DNA of 32,965 nucleotides from a virus: positions 1-32,965 of IMG/VR virus record IMGVR_UViG_3300017917_002060, one strand, 5' to 3'. Position 1 is the stretch's first letter. Every line of letters begins with the position of its first letter. A program made the position numbers and the translations under genes. Positions 1 to 18,922 of the stretch are shown here, in pieces. Under the pieces are notes generated by a model. That model did no database searches. It had not been told where the DNA came from and was given only the letters and a program-made list of their open reading frames with translations.

Positions 1-2550
1 ATCTACAATAGTTTGAATAAAAGTATTAAGAATATTTTTGGTGTAGTTACAAGAGTTGGGGATAGAATCAGTTTAGTTTTCAGTGATGGAACATTTGGTA
101 ATTTGCCTTTAGGAAGTTTTAGAGTTTATTATAGAGTTAGTAATGGTTTAGCCTATACAATTAATCCCAAAGACATTAGAGGAGTTACGCTTTCTATTCC
201 TTATCTAAGCCATACTAGACAAGTAGAAACACTAACAGTTACTTTAAGTCTTCAATCTAGTGTAACCAATGCTAGTGCAGCAGAATCTAGTTCTTCAATT
301 AAACTAAATGCACCTGCCAATTATTATACACAGAATAGAATGATCACAGGCGAGGATTATAATATTAGTCCGTTGTCAATCTCTCAAGATGTATTAAAAG
401 TAAAAGCCGTTAATAGAAGTAGTAGTGGTATTAGCAGATATTTTGATCTAGTAGATCCCACAGGAAAATATAGTAAAACAAATTTGTTCTCCGATGACGG
501 TGTGCTTTATAGAGAAGAGTACACTGACAGTTTCAAATTTTCTTATGCAACAAAATCTGATATTGAATATGTAATCTATAATGAAATTTTTGCACAATTA
601 AAGAAGGATACACTTAAGAATTTTTATTACAAATATCACTATAAAGATACTACTCAGAGTGTAAGCAGTGTATGGTATCAAAAGACAGTTGATACTAATC
701 AGAGTACCGGCTATATCGGTGACAGCATTGATGCCGTGCCTTATCCGGTCGGTTTTACTAGCGGTAGTAACAGTACTACTGCATATACTAGCACAGACTT
801 AAAATTTATCGAATCAGGGGCAATCGTAAAATTTATTGCCCCAACAGGCTACGTTTTTGATAAAACTAACAATAACATTTTACAAACTCAATCTACAATA
901 CCTACACCTAATACATCTAATTACATTTGGAGTAAAATTATTAGCGTTACTGGTAATGGTACTGCAAATAATACCGGTGAGTTAAGTGACGGTAGTGGTC
1001 CCATTGTGCTTAATGATGTGCTACCTAGTGGTGTCGGCATAGCGAAAATTATTCCAAAATTTAAAAATTTTATTGATTCAGCAACAATCAATACCATGAT
1101 TGATTTGATTTTTGCAAACAAGCCATTTGGTTTAAGATATGACACGGAAAGTCGATCATGGAAGATTATTTTTGAAGCCAACCTTAATCTTGTAGATAGT
1201 TTTAGTTTAGGAAAACAAGGAGACAAAAGTAATCAACAATTAGATGCTAGTTGGTTATTGTTGTTTACTACTGACAATGAATATTATACTGTTAAGACAA
1301 GATTACTGCGTTATATCTTTGAAAGCGACCAACAGATTAGATTTTATTTTGATTCTAGTGATAAAATTTATGATACTAGGAACAACACAATTGTTAAGGA
1401 TAAAATCAAAATACTAAGTATCAATACTGATCCCGCTTCGGCTGGAGAAATTCAACCTTTTACATTCGATAAAGAATGGGAAATTTTAGAAGAATTTAGA
1501 GGTTTAGATGGATATGTTGATACTAAAAAGATAGAAGTTACTTTTGCTGATTCAGACGAAGACGGCTGTGTAGACGATCCAGAAATTTTTGATGTTATTA
1601 TTAATACTGCTAGTCTTACAGAAAATAAGTATGTTTTACAACAAAAATATCAAATTGGCGAAAGACAAGAAGATTACAAATATGTTGAAAATACAAACTA
1701 TAGTGATGTAATAATTCTTGATGCAGAAACAAATTTAAGTTCTTTAAATTTATACAAAGACGGACAATATTTTTACTTTAAGGATAAAGATGTTGTTAAA
1801 CAGTTAAATTTAACTACCAGTACACTCAATGTCAGTTTAGATTATAAGGTATATGTAGGTAGAGATAATCTCAAGTTTCAATATATTCATAATGCAGATT
1901 ATGAAAGCAGAATAGATCCTGCAATTACAAATATTATAGATATTTTTGTTTTAACTAAACAGTATGATTTGTCATTTAGACAATGGTTATTAGGAAGTAT
2001 AGAGCAAGAACCATTACCACCAAGCAGTGACAGTTTGTATAACACTCTATCTGTTGGTCTTAACAAAATAAAATCACTAAGCGATGAAATAATTTATCAT
2101 CCAGTCAGATACAAAGTATTATTTGGTAAAAAAGCATCATACGATGTTCAAGCTACATTTAAAATTGTAAAGAATAATGAGCAGGTAATCAGTGATAATG
2201 ACGTGAAAAGTAAAACATTGGCAGCAATAAATGAATTCTTTTCTATTGAAAATTGGGAATTTGGAGATAAATTTTATTTTAGCGAATTATCAGCTTATGT
2301 TATGGCCAAACTTACACCTTACATAACTAATTTCTTAATTGTACCTAAAAAAGAAGATTTAAGTTTTGGTAGTTTATATGAAATAAATTCAGAAAGCGAT
2401 CAAATTTTTATCAATGGTGCTACAGTAGAAGACATTGAAATTATATCCGGTATAACTGCTAGTAACATTAAATCTTCCGGATCAATTACAAATTCTCCCG
2501 TGATTTTAAATCAACAAAATATCACAAGTGCTAGAATTGGAGATTATTAA
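1..2550 (+). CDS. 6: Baseplate wedge protein, T4 gp6-like (5' end missing)
   Basis: Resembles the T4 gp6 family, which joins neighbouring wedges into the baseplate ring. Visible hallmarks, counted from the TTG at 13, are an early segment with a FSDGTFGNLPLG loop, YYTQNRMITGEDY near residue 103, a following LFSDDGVLYREE segment, and a C-terminus with SFGSLYEINSESDQIF. The reading frame has no stop before base 1, so the TTG at 13 is probably not the true start and the gene continues off the window. Even cut short it exceeds 840 residues, against about 660 for T4 gp6, so it carries extra sequence. Its TAA overlaps the next ATG by one base (TAATG), with GGAG just upstream, which suggests translational coupling to the giant gene. 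The family call rests on remembered motifs, not a search. Confidence 0.82.
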   Translation: MYNSLNKSIKNIFGVVTRVGDRISLVFSDGTFGNLPLGSFRVYYRVSNGLAYTINPKDIRGVTLSIPYLSHTRQVETLTVTLSLQSSVTNASAAESSSSIKLNAPANYYTQNRMITGEDYNISPLSISQDVLKVKAVNRSSSGISRYFDLVDPTGKYSKTNLFSDDGVLYREEYTDSFKFSYATKSDIEYVIYNEIFAQLKKDTLKNFYYKYHYKDTTQSVSSVWYQKTVDTNQSTGYIGDSIDAVPYPVGFTSGSNSTTAYTSTDLKFIESGAIVKFIAPTGYVFDKTNNNILQTQSTIPTPNTSNYIWSKIISVTGNGTANNTGELSDGSGPIVLNDVLPSGVGIAKIIPKFKNFIDSATINTMIDLIFANKPFGLRYDTESRSWKIIFEANLNLVDSFSLGKQGDKSNQQLDASWLLLFTTDNEYYTVKTRLLRYIFESDQQIRFYFDSSDKIYDTRNNTIVKDKIKILSINTDPASAGEIQPFTFDKEWEILEEFRGLDGYVDTKKIEVTFADSDEDGCVDDPEIFDVIINTASLTENKYVLQQKYQIGERQEDYKYVENTNYSDVIILDAETNLSSLNLYKDGQYFYFKDKDVVKQLNLTTSTLNVSLDYKVYVGRDNLKFQYIHNADYESRIDPAITNIIDIFVLTKQYDLSFRQWLLGSIEQEPLPPSSDSLYNTLSVGLNKIKSLSDEIIYHPVRYKVLFGKKASYDVQATFKIVKNNEQVISDNDVKSKTLAAINEFFSIENWEFGDKFYFSELSAYVMAKLTPYITNFLIVPKKEDLSFGSLYEINSESDQIFINGATVEDIEIISGITASNIKSSGSITNSPVILNQQNITSARIGDY

Positions 2551-5500
2551 TGGCATTTGAAAATAATCAAAACGACTTTAGTTTGCCTGATGAATTTACG
2601 TCTAATCGTAAATCTACTGCCTTTTTACCTAAATATTATAGAACTGACAGTAATAATAAATTTTTAAATGCTACATTAGATCAATTAATTCAACCTGGAA
2701 AACTAAAAAAGGTAAACGGATATATCGGTCGGCAGAATAGTAAGGCAACAACAGCAAATGACATTTTTGTTGAAGCTACAGATACAAAAAAACAAAACTA
2801 TCAGTTAGAACCTTCAGGAATCATTAAAGATAGTTTAGATAATGTTACATTTGTAAAAGACTATCTTGATTTTATCAATCAAATTGATGTTTTAGGTGGT
2901 ATAACTAACAATCATAGAAGGATTAATAAGCAAGAATCTTATAGTTGGGATCCTCAAATTGATTGGGATAAGTTTGTAAATTACCAGCAATATTATTGGC
3001 TACCTTACGGTCCTGCGTCCATAAACGTTGTAGGACAACAACAAGAGATTATCAGTACATATACAGTAGTAGGAGTTGACGAAGGAGATAATATTGCTTA
3101 TCTGTTTACACCCAATGGTTTAACTAGAAATCCTTTATTGACTCTTTATAGAGGGCAAACTTATCGTTTTAATTTAAATGTTCAAGGACATCCTTTTAGC
3201 ATTAAAACTGAAAGGATAGCCGGCGACATTCGTAGATATAATACAGGTGTAAGTCAACAGGCAGTTGAAGAAGGTGTTGTTGAATTTACAGTACCGCATG
3301 ACGCTCCTAATGTATTATATTATGTAAGTGAAAATGATGCTAACACCGGCGGAGTCTTTCAGATACAAGACATATTAGAAAATACATTTTTAGATGTAGA
3401 AGCAGATATTATAGGAAAATCTGAATATGTTTTACCAGACGGTACAAGTATTAGTAATGGCATGAAGTTGAAATTTGCAGGAAATGTTGTGCCTGCAAAA
3501 TACAGTTATGATTATTGGTATGTGGAAGGTGTCGGACAAAGTATCCAACTAATAAACAGTAAAGATTTAGAAATTGTAAGTGCTTATAGTGAACAAAAAT
3601 CTATTCTGTTCGACGATACGGCATTTGATATTTTACCATTTGATGATGCCAGTGCTTATGCCCAGGACAAAGATTACATTACAATAAATCGTGCCAGTCT
3701 TGATAAAAATCCATGGACTAGATATAATAGATGGTTTCATAAAAATGTAATAGAAACTGCTGCAAGATTAAATGATACAACTGTTGAATTAGATCAAGTT
3801 GCTCGTGCAAAAAGACCTATTATAGAATTTAAAGAAGGATTAAAATTATTCAATTTTGGAACTGTAGCTAAGAAAAATATTGATTTAATAGATACATTTA
3901 CTGTAGATGCATTTAGCACCATTGAAGGTAGTTTAGGGTACAATATCGACGGCGTAGATATTGCAGAAGGACATAGAATTCTGTTTACTGCCGACACTGA
4001 TAAAAGGGTAAATGGTAGAATATTCCAAGTTAAATTTATCAATGTGCAGGTTAACGAATCTAGAAGAACTCAAGTAACTCTAATTCCTACAGATGATAGC
4101 GAACCAATAGCCAATGAAACAGTGTTGGTAAAATTAGGTTCTAATCAAGGAAAAATGTATTTTTATAATCAAAATCTTGGTTGGCAACTGGCTCAGCAAA
4201 AAATAGGAATTAATCAGGAACCATTATTTGATGTTTTTGATTCTATTGGTAATAGTTTCGGTGATAATGTCTATTATGATGGAACTACCTTCCAGGGAAC
4301 TAAGATCTTTTCTTATAAAAGGGGACAAGGTGTAAATGATTCTGAACTAGGCTTTCCGCTGAGTTACCGTAATATATCAAATATTGGTGATATTGTTTTT
4401 AATTTTAATCTTTTAGAAGATACATTTAACTATAAGACAACATCAACTGTATTAACTGAAAGCATTAATATAGGTTATTTGTTTATCAATACAAACTTGA
4501 ATTCAAATTTTGTCAATGGTTGGGTAAAAACAATTATTGATAATTATCAACCTATAATAAGAATTTTTAAAGGTAATGATCAAACAAATAATTTTTATCT
4601 TGATGTTTTTGATAATATCAATGATTTAGATGATTTAACCTTAAACGTTTACATTAATGGAAAAAGACTGGCTAAAAATCTATATACTGTAGAAAATGAT
4701 GGCAACTACAAAAAAATTACATTAAGTACAGATGCTAATCAGAATGATGTTATCACAGTAAAATGTTTAGCTAGCCAAGCAAAAAATCAAAATGGATATT
4801 ATGAAGTCCCAATTAGTTTTCAAAATAATCCTTTAAACAATCAAGTTGTATCATTCACACTAGGTCAAATTATTGATCATGTAGACAGCATAGTGGATTT
4901 GATTCCAGGGTTTAACGGAGAATATCCAGGCAATAGTAATTTAAGAGATTTAGGTTATTCTAGTCAATACGGATATAAATTTGTGCAACACAGCGGCCCT
5001 GGTTCATTGAGCCTTTACCATGTGTGTAATAAAAATATAAATGCTTTTAAAGCAATAGAAGAAGCCAGAGAAGATTACGGCAAGTTTAAACGTAATTTCA
5101 TTAGAGTAGCAGAATCGTTAGGCTTTACTACATTGTCAATTAGAACACAGGTTGACGAAATATTAAATGAAATTACCAAAGATAAAAGTAAAAATCAAAA
5201 ATATTATCTTAGTGACATGGTGCCATTTAAGGCACCAATAGTAAATCAATTTGTAATTCAAGATAGTAGAATTAAAACATACCCATTATCTAATATTTTT
5301 TCCTTAACTGAATTATCCAACAAAGCAGTTTTGGTTTACTATCAACATGAACAATTAACTTATCAACAAGATTACACAATAAACAGTGAAGGTTTTGTGG
5401 TTGTTTCTAAAGAAATTCAAGAAGAAGCTATTTTAGAAATAATCGAATACGCAACAACTGATGGAAGTTTTGTTCCAGCTACACCTACTAAACTGGGATT

Positions 5501-8500
5501 ATATCCTAAATTTGCTCCTAAGAAATATTTAGATACTAGCTATATAGATCCTACCGAAGTAGTGCAAGGGCATGATGGCAGTATAACTATTGCCTATGGA
5601 GATTATAGAGATGATCTACTATTAGAATTAGAAAAAAGAATTTTCAATAATATAAAAATTGATTACGATCCTGAAATTTTCAGCATACATGACATTATAC
5701 CGGGATATAATAGAAAAACGGAATATTCATTAGAAGAATTTAATCAAGTTTTACGGCCAAGTTTTTATCAATGGTTGTCTTTTGTAGATACAGATTTTGC
5801 AAGAAACACTTTTTATCGACAGGATAATAGTTTTACATGGAATTATAGTTTAAGTTATACGCCCGACGGTGCAAATGCACCGGGTTTTTATAGAGGTGTT
5901 TATAGGTGGTTATTAGATACTGATAGACCAAATATTTGTCCTTGGGAATGTCTTGGTTTCAGCATTCAACCTGATTGGTGGGAAGAAGTTTATGGACCAG
6001 CCCCTTATACAAGTAATAATCTTTTACTTTGGGAAGATTTAAGTAAAGGAATTATTAGACAGCCTGGTCAGCCTGTAAGAATAAACAAAAAATATCTTAG
6101 ACCTTACTTAACAAACTGTATACCAGTAAACGAAGACGGAGATTTGTTATCTCCCAAAGACAGTAACAGTACTTTTGGACCTAATGACAATACAGGTAAT
6201 ACTTCTTTTATTTTTGGTGATGTAAGCCCAGTTGAATCAGCATGGCGTAGAAGTAGCTATTATCCTTTTAGTTTGATTCAAGCAGGATTGTTAATGTATC
6301 CTAATGTAATATTAGGAAAGTTATTTGACCGAAGTAGGATTCAAAAGAATCTCTGTAATCAGTTAATTTATTCTGAAACAAATTTAAGAATTAGAACAAA
6401 AGATGCAATTTTACCTAGCATTGTACAAAATGATACTAGAAATTTTTCCAGCGGTATAGTTAATTGGTTAGTTGATCAAGTAACTGGCGATAATAGACTT
6501 TCTTATGATCGTTATACTGAAGATTTAAAAAATATTACATTTTGCCTTACTAGCAAATTAGAAGGTTTTACCTCTAAAGAAAAATTTAAATTATTGTTAG
6601 ATAGTAAAAATCCTGCTAGTTCCAGTGGAGTTTTTGTTCCAAGTGAGAATTATAATATTATTTTAAATTCAAGCAGTCCGGTTAAAAAAGTTGCTTATAG
6701 CGGAGTTATAATTTTCATTGTTAGTCGTAATCCTTTAGTATTCCAGATTAAAGGTTACTCTCAGGATACACCATACTTTAATTATTATCTGGCTAATAAT
6801 TCAAGAGGTAAGATTGTTAATATTGGCGGAATAAGTGAAACATATAGTGACTGGGCAAGAGAAAATTTATATATTGTCGGACAGGTAGTAAGATACCAAC
6901 AATCATACTACAGAGTTGTAACAGGACATACTAGCAGTAATAATTTTGATCCCTCTAAATTTATTCAGCTTGATAGATTGCCAATTATAGGCGGAAAAGA
7001 AGCTGTATTTAGAACTCAATTTTCAAACGATCTACAAACAGTAAATTATGGTGCTACATTTTATAATGTTCAAGAAGTTGTCGATTTTCTTTTGGGTTAT
7101 GGCAATTATTTAGAAAGACAAGGATTTATATTTGACAACTTTAATTCTGCAATGAATACTGTGAACAATTGGGAAACAAGTGCTAAAGAGTTTTTATTTT
7201 GGTCTACTCAAGGATGGGCACCCGGCAGTATTATAACTCTTAGCCCTAGTGCTAAAAAAATAGTTTTAAAAACCAACAACACAGTTGTAAATGATATTAA
7301 AGATCCGTTTTACAAATATAATATTCTACAAGCTGATGGTACTAAGTTAGAAGATAACTTTGTTAATGCTTATAGGAGCCAGTCTGAATTTACACTACTA
7401 CCTGTTAATACAAACAACGGCATTTATGCAGCTACTTTTTATCTAATACAAAAAGAACATTTGTTAGTACTTGATAATTTCACTAATTTTAATGATGTAA
7501 TATACGATGTCGAACCAGGCTATAGACAGGAAAGAATTAAAGTTGTAGGATATAAAACTGCTGAATGGAATGGAAATTTTGATACTCCAGGATTTATTTA
7601 CGATAGTGCTGAAATTAAAAATTGGGAGGCATGGACAGATTATTACATTGGTGACACTGTTAAGTACAAAGAATTTTATTGGAGTGCAAATAAATTTATT
7701 GCTGGCGCCGATAATTTTGTTGCCGATGATTGGATACGGTTATCATCTAAACCCACGTCTAAACTAGTGCCTAACTGGGACTATAAAGCAGAACAATTTA
7801 CTGATTTTTATGATTTAGATTCTAGTAATTTTGATACAGGTCAGCAAACGGCCGCACAGCATCTTATCGGTTATCAGAAACGTCAGTACCTTGAAAATAT
7901 TATCAATGACGATGTAAGTCAATATAAGTTTTATCAAGGTATGATTATTGAAAAAGGCACACAAAATGTCTTTAATAAATTATTTGATGTCCTGAGTGCC
8001 GACAATGAAGAGAGTTTAAAGTTTTTTGAAGAATGGTCTATAAGAGTAGGCCAATATGGAGCTAGTGACGGATTTGACGAAATTGAATTGACATTGAAAG
8101 ATGAGTTATTCAAATTAAATCCTCAACCTATAGAATTAGTACAGAACTTAGATAATAGCAAAGTAGATTTTGTTATTAGACAAACACCTAATGACATTTT
8201 CATTAAATCAAAAAACTATAATAATCAACCATTTCCTTTAAATCAAAAAACAAATAGTTTTTTAAGATCTGCTGGATATGTTAGATATGACAATGTAAAT
8301 TACTATTGCGACACATTAGATAATTTACTAGCAACTAATAATATTAGTGAATTTAGAGAAGGGGATTATGTCTGGTGCGGTTTTGAAGGCCGTAGTTGGA
8401 ATGTTTATAGATTTACTAAGGTTTCTTTTGTTGTAGAAGATTTAGAAGATAATCAAGGTTTAATTAAAATAAGATGTAATAAATTGCCTGATGTGTCTGC

Positions 8501-11500
8501 TGACGATATAATTGGTATTATAAACGTAGCCAGTTTAACAGGTTTTCATAAATTAAGTAAGGTAGATAAAAGAGAAATTTTCTTTTATGCAGATGCAGGA
8601 CAAAACTTTGAGTTTGCAGATTCTAGTCAAATACTAATTTACAAATTTGTTTCGGCTAGAATTGATAATATAGATTTAGCCAATGATGCATTACCTAATA
8701 TTATTAAAGCAAATGAATTGTTATGGACTGATAATAATGGCGATAATTTATGGACAGTTTGGCAAAATAATCCTGTTTATGCTAAAGATTTAATTCAACT
8801 GCCTACGGCCCAACTTGAACGGAATTTTGGTTTAGCAACTGCTACTAATGCTTTAGGTAATAAATTAGTAGCGTCTGATAACTTAGGGATTGTAAGAATA
8901 TTTGAAAAAGATATTAATGGTACATTCATTGAAAAACAGTCTCTTCAGTCGGTAACAGGTATAGCTAACACAAACGATAAGTTTGGTTTTAGCCTATCAT
9001 TAAGTTCCGATAATCGTTGGTTAGTAATTGGCAGTCCTTTAGCTAGCAATGTGAAAACAAATTATGCAGGAGAATATAATCCTAGCGGTACTTATCAAAT
9101 AGGTGATGTAGTAAGACAAGGAAATACACATTGGGAAGCTACCCGAGTCATGTTAGGCGACGGCAGCACAATAGATAGGTTTAGTCAAGATTGGGAACCA
9201 GCTAGATTAGTTGAAGCTGATATAACAAAAACAGCCAGCGGTTTAAGCAATCAAGGATTAATTTATATCTATGAAAAAGACAGTGCCAGCACATATTTGT
9301 TGTCACACATTATTGTTAGTCCTTATCCAGTTGCTAATGAACAATTTGGTTATAAAGTTAAAATAGCCGGATCAAATGGAGAATATACTCTAGTCGTTAG
9401 TGCTCCTGGATACAATAACAATCAAGGAAGATTGTATACCTATAGATTTAGCAGTGTAGATACTGTCAGTGGGTATGTGTGGCACATGGATTATGATAGG
9501 AATTACAGAGGACATCATAATCCTTTACTATCATATAATGCAGGTGACATTGTTTTTTATGAATCTAGGCTATACCAGGCTATTGCAGATGTACCTGTAG
9601 ACCCGTTTATAAACAATCCAAGTCTATGGACTGCTATAGAAGATACTAGTATATTAGGATGTATGCCTCAACAGGTAACAAATACCTATGTATCTGATGT
9701 TAACCTAATTTATCGTCCTACAGTTACAGAAAACGTAGAAAGTGTTTTTGTTGGTGATATGTTTGGTGATGATTTTGATTTGTCCGCCGACGGAACTAGA
9801 TTAGTTGTAACTGCACCTAATAGTGATAATTTTAGTTTAGATCCTTATAAAGGTCCATATAGAGAAAATTTATCTTATCAAGCTGGGGATATTGTCAAGT
9901 ACAATAACAGCTATTGGGTGTTTGATGGTCCTGTTGACAGTGCTACAGACGGCTCCACTTTTGATTTTACACCAGTAGGTCCTTGGAATCAAAGCCGTTG
10001 GACACCGTTCACCGGAAATTATGAACCAAGCCAAGGAAAAGTTTTTGTTTATGAATATAGTGGAACAAAGTTTGTTCTTACTGATACTATCAGTGGTAGA
10101 AATTTTGATCAAGAAGGTATAATTAGGTTTGGAGAATCAGCAGCAATTTCCCATGACGGATACAATTTAGCTGTTGGTGCTACACTATTTGATAATACAA
10201 AAACTGATCAAGGTGCAGTATTTGTTTTTAATTATGACACTAGTGCATTTACATTCAAACAAACAATTACTAGAAAATATGCAGAAGTATCAGAAAAGTT
10301 TGGTGAAAAAGTATTCTTCTCTAACAAAGGTAAAACTCTAATCGTCTATTCAACTAATGGATCTGCTAATTTGATTAGCACTTTTGACAATGATACTACA
10401 ACCTTTGATAAGTTTCAATTTAGATTATTAGACACTGTGTTTAACAGCGGAAGAATTGACATTTATAACAAATATAATGAAAATTATATCTTTGGAGAAA
10501 GCCTAGTAGAATACACAGATGTTTATGCAGATAAGTTTGGTTACAGTATTTCCTGCGGAGAAAACAATATATTTGTAAGTGCTCCGTTGGCTACGTATCA
10601 GTCTGTGTCTAAAAATGGTTTGATTTTTGAATACAAGAAAAATGCTAATAATTACAGCTGGACTATTTTAAGTCAAGAAATACCTTCTGTAGACATTGCA
10701 AAAATTAAAAAAGTTTATCTGTATAATGCAAAAACTAATCAATTAATCAGATATTTAGATGTCATTGATCCGGTACAGGGTAGAGTTGCAGGTATAGCTG
10801 ACCAAGAAATAAAATATAAAACTTTTTATGATCCAGCTGTATACACTCAAGGATTCAGTACATTACAGATAGATGAAAATAACAATTGGACTAAAAACAA
10901 GATTGGTGTTCTATGGTGGGATTTAACTAGAGCTAAGTTTTTAGAAAGCCAGGATTCTAGCATAACCTACAGAAATTCAACCTGGAACACACTTTTTGAT
11001 ACAGCTAGTATTGACATTTATGAATGGGTAGAGTCTAAATATTTGCCAGAGGACTGGGATAAACTTGCCGATACTGAAAGAGGGTTAAGTCAGAATATCA
11101 GTGGCACCAGTGTATACGGAAATAACGCCTATAGTGTTGATAGGAAATATGACACAGTTACTAGGAAATTTAATAATACCTATTATTTCTGGGTAAAAAA
11201 TAAAAAAACTGTTCCAGCAGTTTCAGGTCGAACATTGTCTTCAGCCGAAGTAAGTTTATTAATTTCAGATCCTAAAGCTCAAGGTTATAAATTTGTTGCA
11301 TTTACTAGCCCTAATAGTGTTAGCTTGTTTAACTGTAAAAACGAGTTGTTAGATTCTGAAGTTAAGTTAGCTGTGCAATTTTGGACTATAGATAATATTG
11401 AAACTAATATACACAGTCAATGGAAAATAGTTAGTTTAGATCCTAATAGCAATATTCCAAATACCATAGAACAAAAATGGATAGACAGTCTTGTTGGCAA

Positions 11501-14500
11501 AGACATCAATGACAGAGTTGTTCCAGATTATACATTACCTCCTAAAAAGAGATATGGTATAGAATTTAGACCTAGACAAAGTATGTTTGTTAATAGGTAT
11601 GAAGCTCTAAAACAGGTTGTTGAAAAAACTAATTCTATACTTAAATCACAGTTAGTGGCTGAGACAAGAAATCTAAGCGATCTTATGTCAGCTGATCCTG
11701 CACCAACAGAGCTTAGTGGTTTGTATGATGTTACTAAAGATATCAGTGCAGAATTGCAATTCATTAGTACAAATAACTTAAGAACAGCTTCATTATTACC
11801 TATAATTGTTGATGGTAAAATTACAGATGTAGAAATAGTTGATTCCGGTTACGGATATCAAAATGCTCCTTTTATTAAAATAAACGGAGCAGGCATAGAT
11901 GCATCAATAAGAACTATTATAGATACCAAAGGTAGAATAACTGGAGTTAGCATCTCCAATTCTGGAAAAGGTTATGGTGAAAATACAACTTTAAGTGTTA
12001 GAGATTATAGTGTTTTAGTTAGATCAGACGAAGGCGCCGGCGGAAAGTGGAGTATCTATGCATGGGATACTCAAGGAAAACAATGGTATAGAATAAAGAG
12101 TCAAAGTTTTGATGTAACAAGATTCTGGAGCTACATTGATTGGTATGCTTTAGGATATAATCAATTTACTAAAGTGGATTTTAGTGTAGATTTTACCTAT
12201 CAATTAGCCTCGTTGAAAGCAGTTATTGGACAAACTGTCAAAGTTAACAATGTAGGAATTGGCGGCTGGCTCTTATTAGAAAAATATGCTGATGGTACAA
12301 TTGTAGATTACACAACTTCTTATAGAGTAATTGGTAGGCAGAACGGAACTATTGCCCTAAGTGACTCTCTATATTATTTTATAGATAGTCCACTGGGATT
12401 TGACGGTTCTTTGTTTGATAGTAATTTATATGACAACAATGCGTCTATAGAATTGAGAATAATTTTAGAATCTTTAAAAAATCACATTTTTGTCGATGAT
12501 TTAAAGAGAGCTTGGTTAGAAATATTTTTTACTAGTTTAAGGTACGTATTATACGAACAGTATTATGTAGATTGGTTGTTTAAGACTAGTTTTATAAAGG
12601 CACAACATAATGTTGGAGATCTCAAACAAAAAACTAATTACAACAATGATAATTTAGAGAATTTTGAAGACTTTGTTAACGAAGTAAAGCCTTATAGAAC
12701 AAAAATCCGAGAATATATTAGTCAATACTCAAAAGTTACAACAGCATCTATGACTGTTACTGACTTTGATCTTCCGCCTACCATTAATAGGAACGGAGAA
12801 ATAACCCCTGTTTTAGTAACAACAGCAGCAGATGAAAAATTTGTATTTTCTTCAAATGTTGTTGAAACATATCCTTGGAAATATTGGTTAGACAATGTAG
12901 GATTTATTATATCGTCGATAGAAATCGTAGATGGAGGAAGTGGTTATGTAACTCCTCCTGTGGTTAAGATTGAAGGTGATGGAACTGGTGCTTTAGCACA
13001 GGCTTATATTGCTAATGGCAAAGTTAATAGAATTGTGCTTTATAATAATGGAACTGGTTATACTAAAACTCCAAGTGTTACATTAGACGGCGGCCTAAGA
13101 TTAAACGGTGTGGCTGCTCGAGTCGTCCCAATAATGAAAAGTGAAGTTGTACGGTCGATGTTTGTTGGCATCAAGTTTGATAGAACATCTGGATCATACT
13201 ACGTAGATCAATATATTAAAACTGAAAACTTTACAGGCACGGGCAGTAGAAAACAATTTGTTCTTCAATGGGTTCCTGATATCCGTATCGGTAAAAGCTC
13301 GGTCTATGTAAATGGACAGCAATTATTAAGAGAAGAATATAGTTTAGAAAGAAAAACATCAACAAGTAGGGGATATACTTACAAGTACGGAGTCTTAACT
13401 TTAGCAAGTAGTCCAGCTGTAGGAGACTCAATTCAAATAGAATACTATAAAGATGTTGATGTCTATAATGCTATAGATAGAGTAAAATATTTTTATGAAC
13501 CAACAACAAAAATGTTGGGAAAAGATATATCTCAAATTTATACAGGTATAGATTATGGTGGTGTTAGTATTACAGGATTAGGATTTGGAGCAGGAGCTGG
13601 GTGGGATGCATTACCATGGTTTAGCGACCAATGGGATGGTTTTGATGCAGCTTTTGACGATTATCTAATTACTGTAGATGATAGCACCTACACATATACC
13701 TTACCTTATACACCGGCATTAGGTCAGGAAATAAATGTGTATGTTAACGGACAACGTATAGATGATCCGTATTTTGATTTATACGACGGAAGTACAATCC
13801 AACCTAATGGAAGAACTGTTCCTGCTAATGGCATAGTTATGAAAACAATTGTAGGCGACGGAGTTACAAATACTTACAGTTTACCTAACTTAACAGATAA
13901 TCCTCCATTGGATATAAATCAAGGAGATAAAATAATTTTCCGTAAGAGCACTAGCGACGGCAGTTTCTTACCTAACGAAAATGAATATGATACCATATTA
14001 ACAGGTGGAGATTTATCATATTCTACGGCTACTGGTATTGCACCAGAAGATATTATTTTAGATGGTGATGGGTTTGTTACACCTATGACTAGTCATGCAC
14101 CAGAAGAAGTAGTACCAGGGCAGATTGTAGACACTGTGGCAATTAAAGTGTTTGCACGACCATCTAATAACAGTGCAGAAATTAAGTGGTTGAATTATAA
14201 AGCTAATGGTTGTACTTGCGGATTTCCTATTAACCAATTCCCTAACAGTTTAGATGCTACGTTGGTCAAGGTAGCGGGACAAATCAAAAAAGTAAACATT
14301 GATTATACTTTAGATTGGGATAATAAACGCATTCAATTTGCTAGTCCTCCAGCTGCTTTTGATGATGTTGCTATAGCAAGTTGGGGATTTAACGGAAACA
14401 ACATTCTTGATATTGACTATTTTGTCGGAGATGGTAGCACAGTAGAATTTATTACAAAGGCACCGTGGGTAGATAATCCTGCAGGATTAGTGCTAGTAAA

Positions 14501-16181
14501 TGGTAATACACAAAGTTATGATTTATTTAGAACTGACACTACTTACATCAGTAGTAATAGAGTTGGAATAAGATTCAGCGTGGCACCTAATACTGGAGAA
14601 ATAGTTAATTATGTAATTCAAAATCCTACATATTTTGATGATAGTACTGTTTTGCAAACAACTAGTCTAGTAAAGAAAGAAATTTTTGTTTCAGATGGTA
14701 GCACACAGACTTATTATTTGAATAATATATTAGGTGCTAATGAAATATATGAAAATAATACAATTGTTAGAGTAGGACAAACAGTTCTAAGAGGACCTAG
14801 TGCTGCATCTTATGTACTAGCTGACAATGTTAGGACTTATGCTCTACCTCAGCATAAATTTGGTCCTTATCAGTTTGAACCAACTAATGTAAGAGTCTAT
14901 AGAAATGGCCTTCAGTTAGCACCGGGTACTGAATTTGTTTTTAATTACGGAACAGTTGAAATTACTCTCAGCGTCAACGCATATCGAGAAGGTGAAAAGT
15001 TAGTCATTATTGTAGATACAGATGCAGAGTATTCTATGAATGCTAGTTCTTTAACATTAGTTAATACAGTTTTAGAAGGCGTAGAAATTGAAGTTACTAG
15101 TTTTTATAATCATGATGTTTTAGATATTGAAAGAACTGAAGATATTATGTCTCCGGCTATTACTTTATCTGAAGGAACTCCAGACTATTATGATTATAAT
15201 TATAAACGTGGTGGTAAATTTACAGTAAGAAGACCAGCGATCAGCGATAGTTACATATGGATTTCTCGCAATGGAGAATTATTATCTCCTAGCGTCGATT
15301 ATAGATTACTTGAAGATCGCTTGACAATTGAATTTGCAGAGAATTTAGAAGATGATGATAGAATTAGTATTATTGCTTTCAGTCCAGATGTGGTTACAAA
15401 AATTTACAGCTATATGCAATTCAAAGATATGTTAAACAGGGTAACTTACAAACGTTTAAGAAAAACAAAACAAACTTTTATTACTCGTGCATTGTATCAA
15501 AAAGATGTAGATATTATCGTTGACGATGGCAGTATATTAGAAGAACCAAATCCTGAAAAGAATTTGCCAGGCGTTGTTGAGATTATGGGCGAAAGAATTG
15601 AATATTTTGCCAAAGATGGTAATCGTTTAAGTAGATTGAGAAGAGGAACAATGGGAACAGGCGCCAAAGAAGTCTATGCTAGCGGAACATTAATAATTGA
15701 TATAGGCCCTCAAGAAACTATTCCTTATAAAGATGAATATATTGTTGAAACTTTTGTAACTGGCGATAGTAGTGGTATAGTGCCTTTGAACTATATTCCT
15801 AATTTTAAAGAAGGTACCATAGACGATGGCAGTACAGCTTATACAGGCTGGTATAGAGATACTATTCCTGAGGATTACGGTCAGTGTGATGAACTTGAAG
15901 TTTTTGTAGGCGGTTTTAGATTGAAAAAAGCACCATTTATTATGCACGATCAAAATATTCATCCAGAAAGCCCTGACGGGGATCAAGATGTAGAAGCTGA
16001 ATTTAGCGTCAACATTGATACTGCTGGTATTAGATTAACTAATCCGCCAGAAGAAGGAACCAAAGTTGTTATAGTTAAAAAGCTAGGAAAAGTTTGGAAT
16101 GATCCTGGAATTAGTTTAGCCAACAGTGATAATAATATTGCTAATTTCATCAAGCAAGAAGAGGGTATTTGGCCACTATAA
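2550..16181 (+). CDS. Giant multidomain tail/baseplate structural protein (4543 aa)
   Basis: One uninterrupted frame of 4543 codons begins at ATG 2550 after a GGAG ribosome site. It stands where T4 has genes 7 and 8 but is more than four times the length of gp7. Segments in order: an N-terminal region with FLPKYYRTDSNNKFL (about 24) and WDKFVNYQQYYWLP (about 140); a cupredoxin-like domain (197-275); two CBM-like W/Y-GD-V segments (1432-1480, 1691-1734); seven FG-GAP-like repeats with three more CBM-like inserts (2093-2705); two paired GSGY repeats (3091-3152, 3453-3517) around a NEVKPYRTKIREY motif (about 3378); beta-rich GDGST modules (from about 3560); and an LRRGTMGT module (4288-4398). 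No signal peptide or membrane segment is evident. Very large proteins with a similar N-terminus occur beside gp6 in marine T4-like phages, some labelled VrlC-like; that link is recalled, not tested. Probable role: baseplate-peripheral or adhesive structure. Confidence 0.8.
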   Translation: MAFENNQNDFSLPDEFTSNRKSTAFLPKYYRTDSNNKFLNATLDQLIQPGKLKKVNGYIGRQNSKATTANDIFVEATDTKKQNYQLEPSGIIKDSLDNVTFVKDYLDFINQIDVLGGITNNHRRINKQESYSWDPQIDWDKFVNYQQYYWLPYGPASINVVGQQQEIISTYTVVGVDEGDNIAYLFTPNGLTRNPLLTLYRGQTYRFNLNVQGHPFSIKTERIAGDIRRYNTGVSQQAVEEGVVEFTVPHDAPNVLYYVSENDANTGGVFQIQDILENTFLDVEADIIGKSEYVLPDGTSISNGMKLKFAGNVVPAKYSYDYWYVEGVGQSIQLINSKDLEIVSAYSEQKSILFDDTAFDILPFDDASAYAQDKDYITINRASLDKNPWTRYNRWFHKNVIETAARLNDTTVELDQVARAKRPIIEFKEGLKLFNFGTVAKKNIDLIDTFTVDAFSTIEGSLGYNIDGVDIAEGHRILFTADTDKRVNGRIFQVKFINVQVNESRRTQVTLIPTDDSEPIANETVLVKLGSNQGKMYFYNQNLGWQLAQQKIGINQEPLFDVFDSIGNSFGDNVYYDGTTFQGTKIFSYKRGQGVNDSELGFPLSYRNISNIGDIVFNFNLLEDTFNYKTTSTVLTESINIGYLFINTNLNSNFVNGWVKTIIDNYQPIIRIFKGNDQTNNFYLDVFDNINDLDDLTLNVYINGKRLAKNLYTVENDGNYKKITLSTDANQNDVITVKCLASQAKNQNGYYEVPISFQNNPLNNQVVSFTLGQIIDHVDSIVDLIPGFNGEYPGNSNLRDLGYSSQYGYKFVQHSGPGSLSLYHVCNKNINAFKAIEEAREDYGKFKRNFIRVAESLGFTTLSIRTQVDEILNEITKDKSKNQKYYLSDMVPFKAPIVNQFVIQDSRIKTYPLSNIFSLTELSNKAVLVYYQHEQLTYQQDYTINSEGFVVVSKEIQEEAILEIIEYATTDGSFVPATPTKLGLYPKFAPKKYLDTSYIDPTEVVQGHDGSITIAYGDYRDDLLLELEKRIFNNIKIDYDPEIFSIHDIIPGYNRKTEYSLEEFNQVLRPSFYQWLSFVDTDFARNTFYRQDNSFTWNYSLSYTPDGANAPGFYRGVYRWLLDTDRPNICPWECLGFSIQPDWWEEVYGPAPYTSNNLLLWEDLSKGIIRQPGQPVRINKKYLRPYLTNCIPVNEDGDLLSPKDSNSTFGPNDNTGNTSFIFGDVSPVESAWRRSSYYPFSLIQAGLLMYPNVILGKLFDRSRIQKNLCNQLIYSETNLRIRTKDAILPSIVQNDTRNFSSGIVNWLVDQVTGDNRLSYDRYTEDLKNITFCLTSKLEGFTSKEKFKLLLDSKNPASSSGVFVPSENYNIILNSSSPVKKVAYSGVIIFIVSRNPLVFQIKGYSQDTPYFNYYLANNSRGKIVNIGGISETYSDWARENLYIVGQVVRYQQSYYRVVTGHTSSNNFDPSKFIQLDRLPIIGGKEAVFRTQFSNDLQTVNYGATFYNVQEVVDFLLGYGNYLERQGFIFDNFNSAMNTVNNWETSAKEFLFWSTQGWAPGSIITLSPSAKKIVLKTNNTVVNDIKDPFYKYNILQADGTKLEDNFVNAYRSQSEFTLLPVNTNNGIYAATFYLIQKEHLLVLDNFTNFNDVIYDVEPGYRQERIKVVGYKTAEWNGNFDTPGFIYDSAEIKNWEAWTDYYIGDTVKYKEFYWSANKFIAGADNFVADDWIRLSSKPTSKLVPNWDYKAEQFTDFYDLDSSNFDTGQQTAAQHLIGYQKRQYLENIINDDVSQYKFYQGMIIEKGTQNVFNKLFDVLSADNEESLKFFEEWSIRVGQYGASDGFDEIELTLKDELFKLNPQPIELVQNLDNSKVDFVIRQTPNDIFIKSKNYNNQPFPLNQKTNSFLRSAGYVRYDNVNYYCDTLDNLLATNNISEFREGDYVWCGFEGRSWNVYRFTKVSFVVEDLEDNQGLIKIRCNKLPDVSADDIIGIINVASLTGFHKLSKVDKREIFFYADAGQNFEFADSSQILIYKFVSARIDNIDLANDALPNIIKANELLWTDNNGDNLWTVWQNNPVYAKDLIQLPTAQLERNFGLATATNALGNKLVASDNLGIVRIFEKDINGTFIEKQSLQSVTGIANTNDKFGFSLSLSSDNRWLVIGSPLASNVKTNYAGEYNPSGTYQIGDVVRQGNTHWEATRVMLGDGSTIDRFSQDWEPARLVEADITKTASGLSNQGLIYIYEKDSASTYLLSHIIVSPYPVANEQFGYKVKIAGSNGEYTLVVSAPGYNNNQGRLYTYRFSSVDTVSGYVWHMDYDRNYRGHHNPLLSYNAGDIVFYESRLYQAIADVPVDPFINNPSLWTAIEDTSILGCMPQQVTNTYVSDVNLIYRPTVTENVESVFVGDMFGDDFDLSADGTRLVVTAPNSDNFSLDPYKGPYRENLSYQAGDIVKYNNSYWVFDGPVDSATDGSTFDFTPVGPWNQSRWTPFTGNYEPSQGKVFVYEYSGTKFVLTDTISGRNFDQEGIIRFGESAAISHDGYNLAVGATLFDNTKTDQGAVFVFNYDTSAFTFKQTITRKYAEVSEKFGEKVFFSNKGKTLIVYSTNGSANLISTFDNDTTTFDKFQFRLLDTVFNSGRIDIYNKYNENYIFGESLVEYTDVYADKFGYSISCGENNIFVSAPLATYQSVSKNGLIFEYKKNANNYSWTILSQEIPSVDIAKIKKVYLYNAKTNQLIRYLDVIDPVQGRVAGIADQEIKYKTFYDPAVYTQGFSTLQIDENNNWTKNKIGVLWWDLTRAKFLESQDSSITYRNSTWNTLFDTASIDIYEWVESKYLPEDWDKLADTERGLSQNISGTSVYGNNAYSVDRKYDTVTRKFNNTYYFWVKNKKTVPAVSGRTLSSAEVSLLISDPKAQGYKFVAFTSPNSVSLFNCKNELLDSEVKLAVQFWTIDNIETNIHSQWKIVSLDPNSNIPNTIEQKWIDSLVGKDINDRVVPDYTLPPKKRYGIEFRPRQSMFVNRYEALKQVVEKTNSILKSQLVAETRNLSDLMSADPAPTELSGLYDVTKDISAELQFISTNNLRTASLLPIIVDGKITDVEIVDSGYGYQNAPFIKINGAGIDASIRTIIDTKGRITGVSISNSGKGYGENTTLSVRDYSVLVRSDEGAGGKWSIYAWDTQGKQWYRIKSQSFDVTRFWSYIDWYALGYNQFTKVDFSVDFTYQLASLKAVIGQTVKVNNVGIGGWLLLEKYADGTIVDYTTSYRVIGRQNGTIALSDSLYYFIDSPLGFDGSLFDSNLYDNNASIELRIILESLKNHIFVDDLKRAWLEIFFTSLRYVLYEQYYVDWLFKTSFIKAQHNVGDLKQKTNYNNDNLENFEDFVNEVKPYRTKIREYISQYSKVTTASMTVTDFDLPPTINRNGEITPVLVTTAADEKFVFSSNVVETYPWKYWLDNVGFIISSIEIVDGGSGYVTPPVVKIEGDGTGALAQAYIANGKVNRIVLYNNGTGYTKTPSVTLDGGLRLNGVAARVVPIMKSEVVRSMFVGIKFDRTSGSYYVDQYIKTENFTGTGSRKQFVLQWVPDIRIGKSSVYVNGQQLLREEYSLERKTSTSRGYTYKYGVLTLASSPAVGDSIQIEYYKDVDVYNAIDRVKYFYEPTTKMLGKDISQIYTGIDYGGVSITGLGFGAGAGWDALPWFSDQWDGFDAAFDDYLITVDDSTYTYTLPYTPALGQEINVYVNGQRIDDPYFDLYDGSTIQPNGRTVPANGIVMKTIVGDGVTNTYSLPNLTDNPPLDINQGDKIIFRKSTSDGSFLPNENEYDTILTGGDLSYSTATGIAPEDIILDGDGFVTPMTSHAPEEVVPGQIVDTVAIKVFARPSNNSAEIKWLNYKANGCTCGFPINQFPNSLDATLVKVAGQIKKVNIDYTLDWDNKRIQFASPPAAFDDVAIASWGFNGNNILDIDYFVGDGSTVEFITKAPWVDNPAGLVLVNGNTQSYDLFRTDTTYISSNRVGIRFSVAPNTGEIVNYVIQNPTYFDDSTVLQTTSLVKKEIFVSDGSTQTYYLNNILGANEIYENNTIVRVGQTVLRGPSAASYVLADNVRTYALPQHKFGPYQFEPTNVRVYRNGLQLAPGTEFVFNYGTVEITLSVNAYREGEKLVIIVDTDAEYSMNASSLTLVNTVLEGVEIEVTSFYNHDVLDIERTEDIMSPAITLSEGTPDYYDYNYKRGGKFTVRRPAISDSYIWISRNGELLSPSVDYRLLEDRLTIEFAENLEDDDRISIIAFSPDVVTKIYSYMQFKDMLNRVTYKRLRKTKQTFITRALYQKDVDIIVDDGSILEEPNPEKNLPGVVEIMGERIEYFAKDGNRLSRLRRGTMGTGAKEVYASGTLIIDIGPQETIPYKDEYIVETFVTGDSSGIVPLNYIPNFKEGTIDDGSTAYTGWYRDTIPEDYGQCDELEVFVGGFRLKKAPFIMHDQNIHPESPDGDQDVEAEFSVNIDTAGIRLTNPPEEGTKVVIVKKLGKVWNDPGISLANSDNNIANFIKQEEGIWPL
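3138..3374 (+). other. Cupredoxin-like domain lacking copper ligands, inside the giant protein
   Basis: Residues about 197-275 of the giant protein read RGQTYRFNLN, GHPFSIK, a YNTG turn, GVVEFTVPHDAP and LYYVSENDANTGG. This follows the cupredoxin-like pattern seen in many marine phage and bacterial surface proteins, where the last strand normally reads like YYCSNHSGMGG. His214 of GHPF remains, but the Cys position is Val259, the His position is Asn262/Asp263 and the Met position is about Thr266. Inferred: the fold is kept as a structural beta-sandwich and copper binding is lost. Confidence 0.5.
6843..7752 (+). other. Two further CBM5/12-like segments in the giant protein
   Basis: Residues about 1432-1480 (DWARENLYIVGQVVRYQQSY, then a downstream FIQL) and 1691-1734 (NWEAWTDYYIGDTVKYKEFY, then DDWIRLS) share the short aromatic pattern W-x(5)-Y-x-(I/V)-G-(D/Q)-x-V-x-Y ... 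(W/F)-I-x-L. They match the three inserts of the propeller region, making five such segments in one protein. Small domains of this shape bind chitin or other glycans in known enzymes and phage tails; glycan binding here is inference. Confidence 0.42.
8826..10665 (+). repeat. Seven FG-GAP-like repeats (predicted beta-propeller) with CBM-like inserts
   Basis: Within the giant protein, FG-headed repeats begin near residues 2093 (FGLATATN), 2145 (FGFSLSLSSDNRWLVIGSP), 2265 (FGYKVKI), 2405 (FGDDFDLSADGTRLVVTAP), 2527 (FGESAAISHDGYNLAVGAT), 2584 (FGEKVFFSNKGKTLIV) and 2663 (FGYSISC). Most continue as L-V-x-(G/S)-AP and several end in a G-x-(V/I/L)-(Y/F)-x-(Y/F) strand, the pattern of integrin-alpha FG-GAP blades. 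Seven repeats match a seven-bladed propeller. Three segments with the shape Y-x-GD-(I/V)-V ... W interrupt repeats two to four (about 2173-2225, 2319-2368, 2437-2494) and resemble small CBM5/12-type carbohydrate-binding modules. The calcium-loop acidic residues typical of integrins are not clearly conserved. Confidence 0.62.
11820..13100 (+). repeat. Two paired GSGY-type beta repeats in the giant protein
   Basis: Residues about 3091-3152 contain EIVDSGYGYQNAPFIKI and then GVSISNSGKGYGENTTL; residues about 3453-3517 contain EIVDGGSGYVTPPVVKI and then RIVLYNNGTGYTKTPSV. Each unit follows I-x-(I/L)-x(3)-G-x-GY-x(3)-P-x-(V/I)-x-I, so there are four half-repeats in two pairs. The sequence between the pairs includes the conserved-looking NEVKPYRTKIREY helix. 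Such GSGY repeats are common in large structural proteins of marine phages; the function is unknown. Confidence 0.55.
13225..15845 (+). repeat. Tandem beta-rich GDGST / VNG modules and LRRGT module at the giant protein C-terminus
   Basis: From residue about 3560 a degenerate module recurs: a GDGST-x-Y-x-L or similar entry (near 3560, 3706, 3767, 3957, 4045, 4423), a (V/I)-(Y/L)-(V/R)-NG-x-x-L strand such as VYVNGQQL, VYVNGQRI, VLVNGNTQ, VYRNGLQL and ISRNGELL, and often an exit strand ending GD/GE-x-(I/L)-x-I. Between two of the last modules (about 4288-4398) lies a distinct segment with QFKDMLNRVTYKRL, PGVVEIMGERIEYF and LRRGTMGTGAKEV, a motif set recalled from other marine phage structural proteins. 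A repetitive beta-rich stalk or shaft is the likely architecture; this is inferred from sequence alone. Confidence 0.5.
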
Positions 16182-16206: not shown

Positions 16207-16815
16207 ATGTTTGGAAAAGACTTAACTGGAATTCATGTAGAAGGTCATATCAAGATTTGGTATCCGGAAACTGGGGAAATCGCCATTAATAAACGCAATG
16301 CTATACATTATGAAAATATGAGCATAGCGTTAGCAGAAAGTTTAGCTAATGCTGGACAGGGTTTCATTTATCAAATGGCATTCGGCAACGGAGGTACTAG
16401 TGTTGATCCTACAGGTATTATCACCTACCTTACACCTAATAGTTCTGGCACCAATGCTAGTTTGTATAATCAAACTTATATCAAAGTAGTAGATGACAGA
16501 GCTGTTTCTAACGTAGATCCTACTAGAAATAGGATCGAAACACGGCATATTACTGGATTAAATTACACTGACGTATTTGTAACCTGTCTTTTAGATTACG
16601 GTGAACCAGTAGGTCAACAGGCATTAGATAATACCACAGATGCAGACGGCAATTTTGTATTCGATGAGCTGGGATTAGTTGGATATAATCCCAATGGTAC
16701 CGGTAGATTATTAACTCATGTGATATTTCATCCAGTCCAAAAGAGTTTAAATAGATTAATTCAAATTGATTATACTGTGCGTATACAGAGTTTAACTGGA
16801 ATTAGTGAGATCTAA
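16207..16815 (+). CDS. Virion structural protein, T4-like family of unknown role
   Basis: This 202-residue protein has no transmembrane segment or signal. It opens with HVEGHIKIWYPETGEIAINK and contains YQMAFGNGG, a central ITGLNYTDVFVTC stretch, FDELGLVG and a C-terminal LLTHVIFHPVQKS followed by IQIDYTVRIQSL. This layout (beta-rich, FDELG, THVIFHP, ending in a TVRI strand) is recalled from virion proteins that follow the baseplate genes in marine T4-like phages; an exact T4 equivalent is not clear. Its position between the giant protein and the fibre genes suggests a connector or baseplate-associated component. A late promoter sits 22 nt before the ATG. Its stop lies one base before the ATG of the next gene, so the two are probably co-translated. 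Confidence 0.6.
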   Translation: MFGKDLTGIHVEGHIKIWYPETGEIAINKRNAIHYENMSIALAESLANAGQGFIYQMAFGNGGTSVDPTGIITYLTPNSSGTNASLYNQTYIKVVDDRAVSNVDPTRNRIETRHITGLNYTDVFVTCLLDYGEPVGQQALDNTTDADGNFVFDELGLVGYNPNGTGRLLTHVIFHPVQKSLNRLIQIDYTVRIQSLTGISEI

Positions 16816-16816
16816 C

Positions 16817-18922
16817 ATGGCATATTCAATAAAATATACAGAACAAAACAATCCACTGAAACCGGATATTACAGTCGACGATCAAACTCTAAATTTAGAA
16901 ACCAGTCTAACATTTGTTGGTAAAAATTATGTAGGTTATGCACAAATTATAGCAGAGAATTTCTTACATCTCTTAGAAAATTTTGCAAAAAATACAGCAC
17001 CAACTAGTCCAGTTGAGGGACAGATATGGTTTGATAACACAGAAGGCGTTAGTCAACTCAAAGTATATGACGGTACTAGCTGGCAACCAGCAGGAAGTAT
17101 CAAAAAATCAAACAGTGCTCCTAGCGTACAAAATAGTAGTCTAGGAGATCTCTGGGCCGATACTGACAATCAGCAACTTTACTTATTCTCAGGGTCTAAT
17201 TGGGTTTTAGTTGGTCCACAATACAGTAGCGGATTGAGGACAGGAGCTGAACCTGAAACCATAGTTGATACTAATAATGTTACAAGAAATATTATTAATT
17301 TATGGGCCAATGATGAACGTGTAGCGATAATCAGTAAAGATGCATTTATACCTAAGTTAACTATTGAAGGTTTTACAGAAGTTAAACAAGGATTTAATTT
17401 ATCTACTAAAAATTTTAATAGTAATAGTGCAACAAATAAATTTTGGGGAACTAGTGAAAAAGCAGATGCACTAGTTATTGGAGGCACACCGGTTGCAGCC
17501 AGCAATTTTTTAAGATCAGATACTAGTAGTATAACTAATTTTGGCCTAGGCATACGTAATAACAGTGGTATAAGTGTAGGTGGTGATTTATCATTCAGCC
17601 TTACTGTAGATAGCGGTACTCCGACTTTTTACAATAAAACAAATGGTTCAAGTGTAGATTTTAAAGTTAATAATAATGGTACAGCTAAAGTTGTACTAAG
17701 AATTGATAGTAACACAAATGTGGGTATTAATAATCCTGCACCAGCAGAGGCATTAGATGTTATAGGAAACATTAAAACTGATAGCAATTTAATTGTTACA
17801 GGAACAACAGATTCAACTAACACAGTTACTGGTAGTATAAAAACTTCGGGCGGCATTGGAATTGCAAAAAATTTAAATGTCGGCGGAACATTTACAGTCA
17901 AAGGAACAAGTACAACTTATAGTATTGTTCCCGATGCTGATGGAACTTACGATTTAGGAACTGATCCTACTACCCTAACTGGCAAAGCATGGAGAAGAAT
18001 TTATAGCGATCAAGTTATTTCTCAAGAATTTGTAGGAAATTTGACTGGTAGCGTTACAGGAAGTGTCGCAGGTAGTGCTAGCAGACTAGCTACTCCTACA
18101 ACATTTCAATTAGTAGGCGAAGTAACTAGTAATGCGGTAAGTTTTAATGGCCAAAGTGAGTCTGGATTAGCTACTTTTACTACAGTTATAGGTCAAGATT
18201 TTTTAACAAATAGAACCGCAGTTACAACTAGCCAAATCAACGACGAATTTTTAGTTTATCGTCCAGGGCTAGGTTTAAGAAAGATGACTAAATCTACTTT
18301 AGTCAGTAATATTGCTCTAATGCCTATAGGAACAATATTAGCATTTGGCGGATCTTCTGCGCCTAACGGATATCTATTATGCGACGGTAGTGAATATAAA
18401 ATTGGTGATTATCCAGAATTATTTGCTGTAATAGGCTACAGTTTTAAATCTGTAGGGTTGTTAATAGGTTCGGGTACATTTGCGTTGCCTGATCTGAGAG
18501 GCAGATTTGCCTTAGGTAGGGACAATATGGATAACGGAAATACCGTACCAAGTATTGTTGATGGTGTAACGTTAGTAGATGCTGGCGGTGGAATCGCTGA
18601 CAGAGTTACTGATGTTACAGCAGATACTGTTGGGTTAGGCAGCGGTATTGAACAAAAGGCGTTAACAGTTAACAACTTGCCAGAACACGAACACGACTTA
18701 AGAGGAAATCAAGGAACACAGTTTTATGCTTTTAGAAATTCAAGCACGGTAATTGCAGATACCGATTATATTTCTGGAAATGGTCCTGATGCAGCTGGAA
18801 CTGGTCAGTATTTGCCTACAAGTGGCGGAATTAACACTGCTGGTACATTAGGATTACCTTTTAGCATAATGAATCCTTATTTGACTGTTAATTATATTAT
18901 CTATACAGGTAAAATTTCATGA
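16817..18922 (+). CDS. Tail fibre protein with C-terminal tail-collar (gp12-like) domain
   Basis: ATG at 16817 is preferred to the GTG at 16805, which would lie inside the preceding gene; this gives 701 residues. Residues 1 to about 200 form a domain shared with the next two genes (LTFVGKNYVGYAQIIAENF, HLLENFA, GQIWFD, GDLWADTDNQQLYLFSGSNW). The middle is repetitive beta-sheet shaft. A phage tail-collar domain occupies about 502-575 (MPIGTILAFGG, APNGYLLCDG, FALPDLRGRFALGRDNM), followed by LPEHEHDL near 620, whose histidines recall the metal-binding tip of T4 gp12, and a final NPYLTVNYIIYTGKI. Probable role: trimeric fibre whose tip contacts the host surface. It shares ATGA with the next gene. 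Confidence 0.8.
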   Translation: MAYSIKYTEQNNPLKPDITVDDQTLNLETSLTFVGKNYVGYAQIIAENFLHLLENFAKNTAPTSPVEGQIWFDNTEGVSQLKVYDGTSWQPAGSIKKSNSAPSVQNSSLGDLWADTDNQQLYLFSGSNWVLVGPQYSSGLRTGAEPETIVDTNNVTRNIINLWANDERVAIISKDAFIPKLTIEGFTEVKQGFNLSTKNFNSNSATNKFWGTSEKADALVIGGTPVAASNFLRSDTSSITNFGLGIRNNSGISVGGDLSFSLTVDSGTPTFYNKTNGSSVDFKVNNNGTAKVVLRIDSNTNVGINNPAPAEALDVIGNIKTDSNLIVTGTTDSTNTVTGSIKTSGGIGIAKNLNVGGTFTVKGTSTTYSIVPDADGTYDLGTDPTTLTGKAWRRIYSDQVISQEFVGNLTGSVTGSVAGSASRLATPTTFQLVGEVTSNAVSFNGQSESGLATFTTVIGQDFLTNRTAVTTSQINDEFLVYRPGLGLRKMTKSTLVSNIALMPIGTILAFGGSSAPNGYLLCDGSEYKIGDYPELFAVIGYSFKSVGLLIGSGTFALPDLRGRFALGRDNMDNGNTVPSIVDGVTLVDAGGGIADRVTDVTADTVGLGSGIEQKALTVNNLPEHEHDLRGNQGTQFYAFRNSSTVIADTDYISGNGPDAAGTGQYLPTSGGINTAGTLGLPFSIMNPYLTVNYIIYTGKIS

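Follow-up and report, generated by a model that had tools for sequence, protein, structure and literature searches.

Introduction

The heads of integrins alpha-L and alpha-X carry an I domain inserted in an FG-GAP propeller, and in integrins some of the blades bear DxDxDG calcium loops. Beta-propellers are also known from phage baseplates, where they have been proposed to contact the host: phi11 RBP has a five-bladed propeller with a modelled GlcNAc cavity, and phiKZ gp131C (4GBF), at the baseplate periphery, has a seven-bladed C-terminal one (PMC4901313).

The window analysed here is a 33-kb virus record, evidently a piece of a jumbo myophage genome, in which a propeller is predicted inside a giant protein associated with the baseplate wedge. 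Whereas phiKZ gp131C and phi11 RBP are separate peripheral proteins, this propeller is internal, of FG-GAP type and interrupted by loop inserts; since baseplate propellers are already known in phages, it is these features that are new, the inserts being both variable and nested. With an integrin alpha head it has in common seven four-stranded FG-GAP blades and extra domains in the loops, a likeness borne by sequence-profile and fold matches. It differs from that head in being embedded in a phage protein, in carrying several small inserts of CBM5/12 type instead of one I domain, and in the absence of any DxDxDG calcium loop from residues 2081-2720, so that it is to be regarded as a fold relative and not as an integrin. 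No paper pairing FG-GAP repeats with either jumbo phages or propellers of the baseplate turned up in our literature search, which covered few of the subscription journals.

Results

Homology, together with its order behind a T4 gp6-like wedge gene, assigns the 4543-aa product to phrog_10938, a family of giant virion proteins found in jumbo myophages such as PA5oct, Atu_ph07, RaK2 and 121Q (Table 1). The start of its ORF (2550-16181) overlaps the stop of the upstream wedge gene. Homologues with 25-29% identity were recovered by tblastn from jumbo phages of Agrobacterium, Sinorhizobium, Pseudomonas, Salicola, Vibrio and enterobacteria, and in six of the eight records inspected (PA5oct, Atu_ph07, Phosso, RaK2, PBECO4 and CBB) the homologue lies directly 3' of an annotated baseplate wedge gene; in the Salicola phage the gp6-like gene sits elsewhere and not directly before it. 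PA5oct gp355, Atu_ph07 gp180 and RaK2 ORF070 thus match the window protein both in backbone and in place behind gp6. The PA5oct record flags its homologue with ESI-MS/MS, which indicates that it is present in the PA5oct virion. The position behind gp6 agrees with that of T4 gp7; no profile homology to T4 gp7 or gp8 was found (hhalign probability below 1% against single T4 sequences, a weak test), which leaves gene order as the one ground for a putative gp7-like role. Near its N-terminus the giant protein contains a domain (3039-3371, residues 164-274) that matches the C-terminal end of phrog_677 (baseplate wedge tail fibre connector, E = 4e-15), lies where P-SSM2 tail fibre/spike proteins also match, and appears cupredoxin/YHYH-like by eye.

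Table 1. Coordinates of the wedge gene, the giant protein and its parts in the window.
Feature	Residues	Position	Strand	Basis
T4 gp6-like baseplate wedge subunit, truncated by window edge		13..2550	+	phrog_10646, E = 3e-170
Giant virion protein, baseplate-wedge region, 4543 aa		2550..16181	+	phrog_10938 'virion structural protein', E = 0
CBM5/12-type module outside propeller	1434-1468	6849..6953	+	best Pfam CBM_5_12 stretch
Second CBM5/12-type module outside propeller	1690-1728	7617..7733	+	motif YYIGDTV...W
Scaffold domain (~160 aa) before propeller	1916-2074	8295..8771	+	in all relatives compared; mostly pLDDT 81-93
Blade 1	2093-2133	8826..8948	+	model strands 182-218
Blade 2, strands A-B	2145-2163	8982..9038	+	sequence motif and model
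Insert 1, CBM5/12-type fold, blade 2 B-C loop	2172-2221	9063..9212	+	Y2182xxGDVV; modelled between strands B and C
Blade 2, strands C-D	2236-2256	9255..9317	+	model
Blade 3	2266-2314	9345..9491	+	strands A-C modelled; D from YVWHMD position against insert-free relatives
Insert 2, CBM5/12-type fold between blades 3 and 4	2317-2366	9498..9647	+	Y2329 motif, profile and model
Blade 4, strands A-B	2405-2423	9762..9818	+	model
Insert 3, CBM5/12-type fold, blade 4 B-C loop	2431-2486	9840..10007	+	Y2443 motif; low model confidence
Blade 4, strands C-D	2496-2515	10035..10094	+	model
Blade 5	2527-2574	10128..10271	+	best FG-GAP_2 stretch; model strands 612-658
Blade 6	2584-2652	10299..10505	+	model strands 669-737; short B-C loop hairpin conserved in family
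Blade 7	2663-2710	10536..10679	+	model strands 752-794

Elsewhere in the window, three consecutive proteins of 705, 607 and 486 aa (16805-22234) have an N-terminal attachment-like region in common and differ in their C-termini, with a tail collar domain in the first and a weak Peptidase_G2 match in the third; they are candidate paralogous fibres, and more conventional candidates for receptor binding than the propeller. Five ORFs follow in a row at 23567-27786, some of them glycosyltransferase-like by eye and none with a Pfam match at E <= 0.01. On the minus strand, at 30428-32766, a MoxR-like AAA ATPase adjoins a DUF2201 metallopeptidase/VWA-like protein, and ThyX is encoded close by.

An earlier note, made from the letters alone, had read seven FG-headed repeats in a row as an integrin-alpha-type propeller in a baseplate protein, and this reading held, as did its coordinates, the last blade ending at about 10679. 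Seven FG-headed blades span residues 2093-2710, with FG at 2093, 2145, 2266, 2405, 2527, 2584 and 2663; an eighth FG, at residue 2648, belongs to an outer strand of blade 6. Shuffling puts the expected number of FG pairs in this stretch at 3.1 against the eight observed (P = 0.008). The strict FG...LVVGAP motif occurs four times here, while each of 20,000 shuffles gave at most two, and is absent from the other 3918 residues of the giant protein. Pfam FG-GAP_2 (PF14312) passes the Pfam cut-off over residues 1916-2730 (E = 2e-15) and matches 42 of 51 propeller regions, that of the window included.

Searched alone against the PDB with phmmer, the window propeller returned noise only, and the family profile was needed to reach the integrins: a profile built from 31 relatives has sequence matches to integrin alpha-L (E = 9e-5) and alpha-6 (E = 3e-4). 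The AlphaFold2 model of the window segment (pLDDT 80.3, pTM 0.77) has four strands per blade on our own assignment, with the exception of an uncertain outer strand in blade 3, and its confidence is low at insert 3 and at the blade 3/4 junction. Among its best PDB matches in Foldseek are integrins alpha4beta7, alpha5beta1 and alphaLbeta2, the r.m.s.d. to integrin heads being high because the inserts and the leading domain are included in the model. For an insert-free relative (L065) the prediction is clearer (pLDDT 86.8, pTM 0.86), with seven sets of four strands, and it matches integrin alphaM/alphaX and closed seven-bladed WD40 rings at TM 0.6-0.75. Seven four-stranded blades closing into a ring are thus predicted for both proteins, weakly so at the blade 3/4 junction of the window, and the models support a seven-bladed integrin-alpha-type FG-GAP propeller at residues 2093-2710.

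The three Y-x-GD-(I/V)-V segments that the earlier note saw interrupting successive blades, and likened to CBM5/12 domains, were recovered as YxxGD(V/I)V at Y2182, Y2329 and Y2443, within inserts in blades 2, 3 and 4, and the profile search agrees (Pfam CBM_5_12, PF02839, E = 8e-8 over residues 1916-2730, above the Pfam cut-off). With the two modules outside the propeller, the giant protein has five of the CBM5/12-like kind, in which the buried core Tyr and Trp columns are kept, the Trp missing only at 1434-1468; the module at about 1434 has a conserved counterpart at this position in Atu_ph07, Phosso, PA5oct and SCTP-2. The profile of the modules finds phage tailspike N-terminal modules first (8fqc, E = 2e-14, matched at residues 29-118 of tailspike gp124; 9rkv), and next chitin deacetylases and the chitin-binding domain of ChiA1 (1ed7, E = 9e-6). 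The CBM5/12 (ChtBD3) domains, the gp124 N-terminal modules and the window modules have the same fold motif, with a buried Tyr and Trp and YxxGD(I/V)V. In propellers generally the B-C and D-A loops lie on one face. Inserts 1 and 3 sit in B-C loops of the window model. Insert 2 comes after strand C of blade 3 and after a Trp stretch that aligns with strand D of insert-free relatives, and therefore probably occupies the D-A loop, a weakly modelled part; its likely place would be on the same face as the B-C loops.

A scan with a conserved core alignment gave 597 related stretches at 80 loci, and contigs of 259 and 372 kb carry at least two of these loci; in 54 of the 80 the region between the conserved anchors measures 567-1872 aa. 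Single-sequence searches with the propeller alone had no match in isolated phages or IMG/VR, because the propeller diverges too fast. Measured as median identity over 31 related pairs, residues 970-1915 stand at 71-74% outside two CBM5/12-type stretches (56% and 61% within those), most of residues 1916-2715 at 42-51%, and residues 2731-2990, downstream, at 66%.

The blades are present in nearly all of some 50 uncultured relatives, while the inserts range from 0 to 785 aa: across 50 relatives insert 1 measures 2-785 aa, insert 2 12-392 aa and insert 3 0-21 aa, so that the CBM at insert 3 is found in the window only and in none of the 50. In many relatives insert 1 starts and ends CBM5/12-like, with up to several hundred residues nested inside. 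Beside blade 3, where the window carries a CBM, the nearest clade carries an unrelated 'GM.V.GTGF' module or nothing, and the state of insert 2, with or without a CBM, switches two or more times on the core tree. That the CBM and GTGF modules swap in exactly one loop was considered and rejected: the blade-3 Trp precedes the CBM but follows the GTGF module, hence the two seem to occupy neighbouring loops. Two unrelated contigs (L051 and L085, at about 13900) have the giant ORF broken, within or close to the propeller, into two frames that overlap; the cause is either faulty assembly or a genuine frameshift or intervening element.

Isolated phages have other content at this site: about 165-240 aa without a propeller, a LamG-like domain, GxGY repeats (Atu_ph07 and Phosso) or one CBM. 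The LamG-like domain, judged by eye, is that of Salicola phage SCTP-2 (L005 11767-13185; residues 1924-2396). FG-GAP_2 is absent from the giant protein in all eight cultured-relative records searched, those of PA5oct gp355, Atu_ph07 gp180 and RaK2 ORF070 among them, for which reason no function can be transferred from the isolates. The Phosso record (PV764938.1, 48000-69000) has 42 FG-GAP_2 matches, most of them in two other giant ORFs (3182 and 3702 aa) and not in the wedge-type giant protein. With a propeller in the uncultured kin and other content in the isolates, this is a conserved protein of the wedge region in which one site tolerates insertions.

Discussion

We propose that the propeller is a fast-evolving contact platform on the baseplate wedge, whose outward orientation and adhesive function we infer; we give this reading about an even chance of being right, and favour it over a structural spacer or fibre dock and over a lectin based on the CBM modules. 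The conserved backbone would carry one tolerant insertion site, at residues ~1916-2730, filled in the uncultured lineage by an FG-GAP propeller whose loops would accept small domains (here three CBM5/12-type folds). Two conserved flanks would hold the propeller on the wedge, its loops and inserted modules would face the host surface or attached fibres, and turnover of loops and inserts would alter contact specificity, leaving the wedge backbone untouched. That the propeller diverges faster than its flanks, and that its inserts turn over, is consistent with such a platform and makes a receptor device possible, and the propellers of phi11 RBP and phiKZ gp131C are precedents in phages (PMC4901313). 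Against this, faster divergence can equally reflect relaxed constraint on an exposed, inert domain, and dedicated fibre-type genes, the first with a tail-collar domain, lie directly downstream.

A tenable alternative, on balance somewhat improbable in our view, is that the propeller and the CBM5/12-type modules add thickness to an oversized baseplate and hold its fibres, as rigid spacers or docking sites, the variation in the loops being neutral or tracking co-evolving fibres. The modules recur along the protein, and isolated jumbo phages with widely differing hosts conserve the one at ~1434; the closest solved relatives of the modules are the phage tailspike N-terminal modules (gp124, 8fqc), and the three neighbouring genes encode paralogous fibre-type proteins. 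Such conservation and kinship suggest a structural building block. It would, however, be unusual for a load-bearing part to change so much faster than its backbone, with inserts varying in both size and type, and the enterobacterial relatives manage without a propeller.

The earlier note went further in taking the assembly for a lectin-like propeller that could bind the receptor or capsule; on such a reading the three inserts would bind GlcNAc-containing or capsular glycans and make the propeller a multivalent lectin. What stands of this is a propeller with CBM5/12-fold loop inserts in a wedge-associated protein; glycan binding by the inserts is not supported, and we consider the lectin quite unlikely. 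CBM_5_12 does pass the Pfam cut-off, and the module profile does match the ChiA1 chitin-binding domain and chitin deacetylases. In ChiA1, W687 is the binding Trp of CBM12 type. The loop before the buried Trp, which differs in length from that of ChiA1, holds a Trp in insert 3 and a Phe in inserts 1 and 2, and a CBM12-type sugar site may exist in the inserts. Conservation of the aromatic pair Y282-W283 of CjCBM5 is nearly complete among CBM5 domains, Y265 and W299 being core residues, and an intact CBM5 binds soluble chitohexaose only at about 2 mM (PMC8449059). By reading of the sequence, all five window modules are without this pair, the two positions being R-V in insert 1, A-D in insert 2, G-P or D-G in insert 3, T-G at 1434 and K-F at 1690; among 84 modules of relatives none has both aromatics and 29 have one, as scored with our own pattern from the core Tyr, whose register is approximate. 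CBM5-type sugar binding by the modules is hence unlikely, the fold is found also at an apparently structural position and in tailspike N-termini, and the nearest clade has a different module or none beside blade 3. The missing pair, together with the conservation of the 1434 module in isolates, leads us to read the modules as CBM5/12 folds used as building blocks. Finally, a reading of the FG repeats as accidental or degenerate, with no propeller, has a negligible probability: only two FG-GAP_2 stretches in the window pass on their own, but this reading is already contradicted by the profile matches in relatives, the integrin sequence-profile match, the two AlphaFold2 models and Foldseek.

To return to the contact platform, a wider and more tentative version of it, which we regard as rather doubtful, is that a whole uncultured jumbo-phage lineage uses an integrin-like wedge propeller as a dedicated display chassis, with conserved blades and with loops that acquire, swap and nest modules to give variable host contact, a design comparable to the nested integrin I domain. 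The modules also call for caution, since a 'chitin-binding' annotation on phage tail proteins may denote a structural fold without the sugar-binding residues. How most jumbo phages recognise their hosts is poorly understood; in dozens of related genomes a conserved backbone of the wedge, an integrin-type propeller that evolves fast and a turnover of loop modules can be read directly, and they point to one defined candidate part for host contact.
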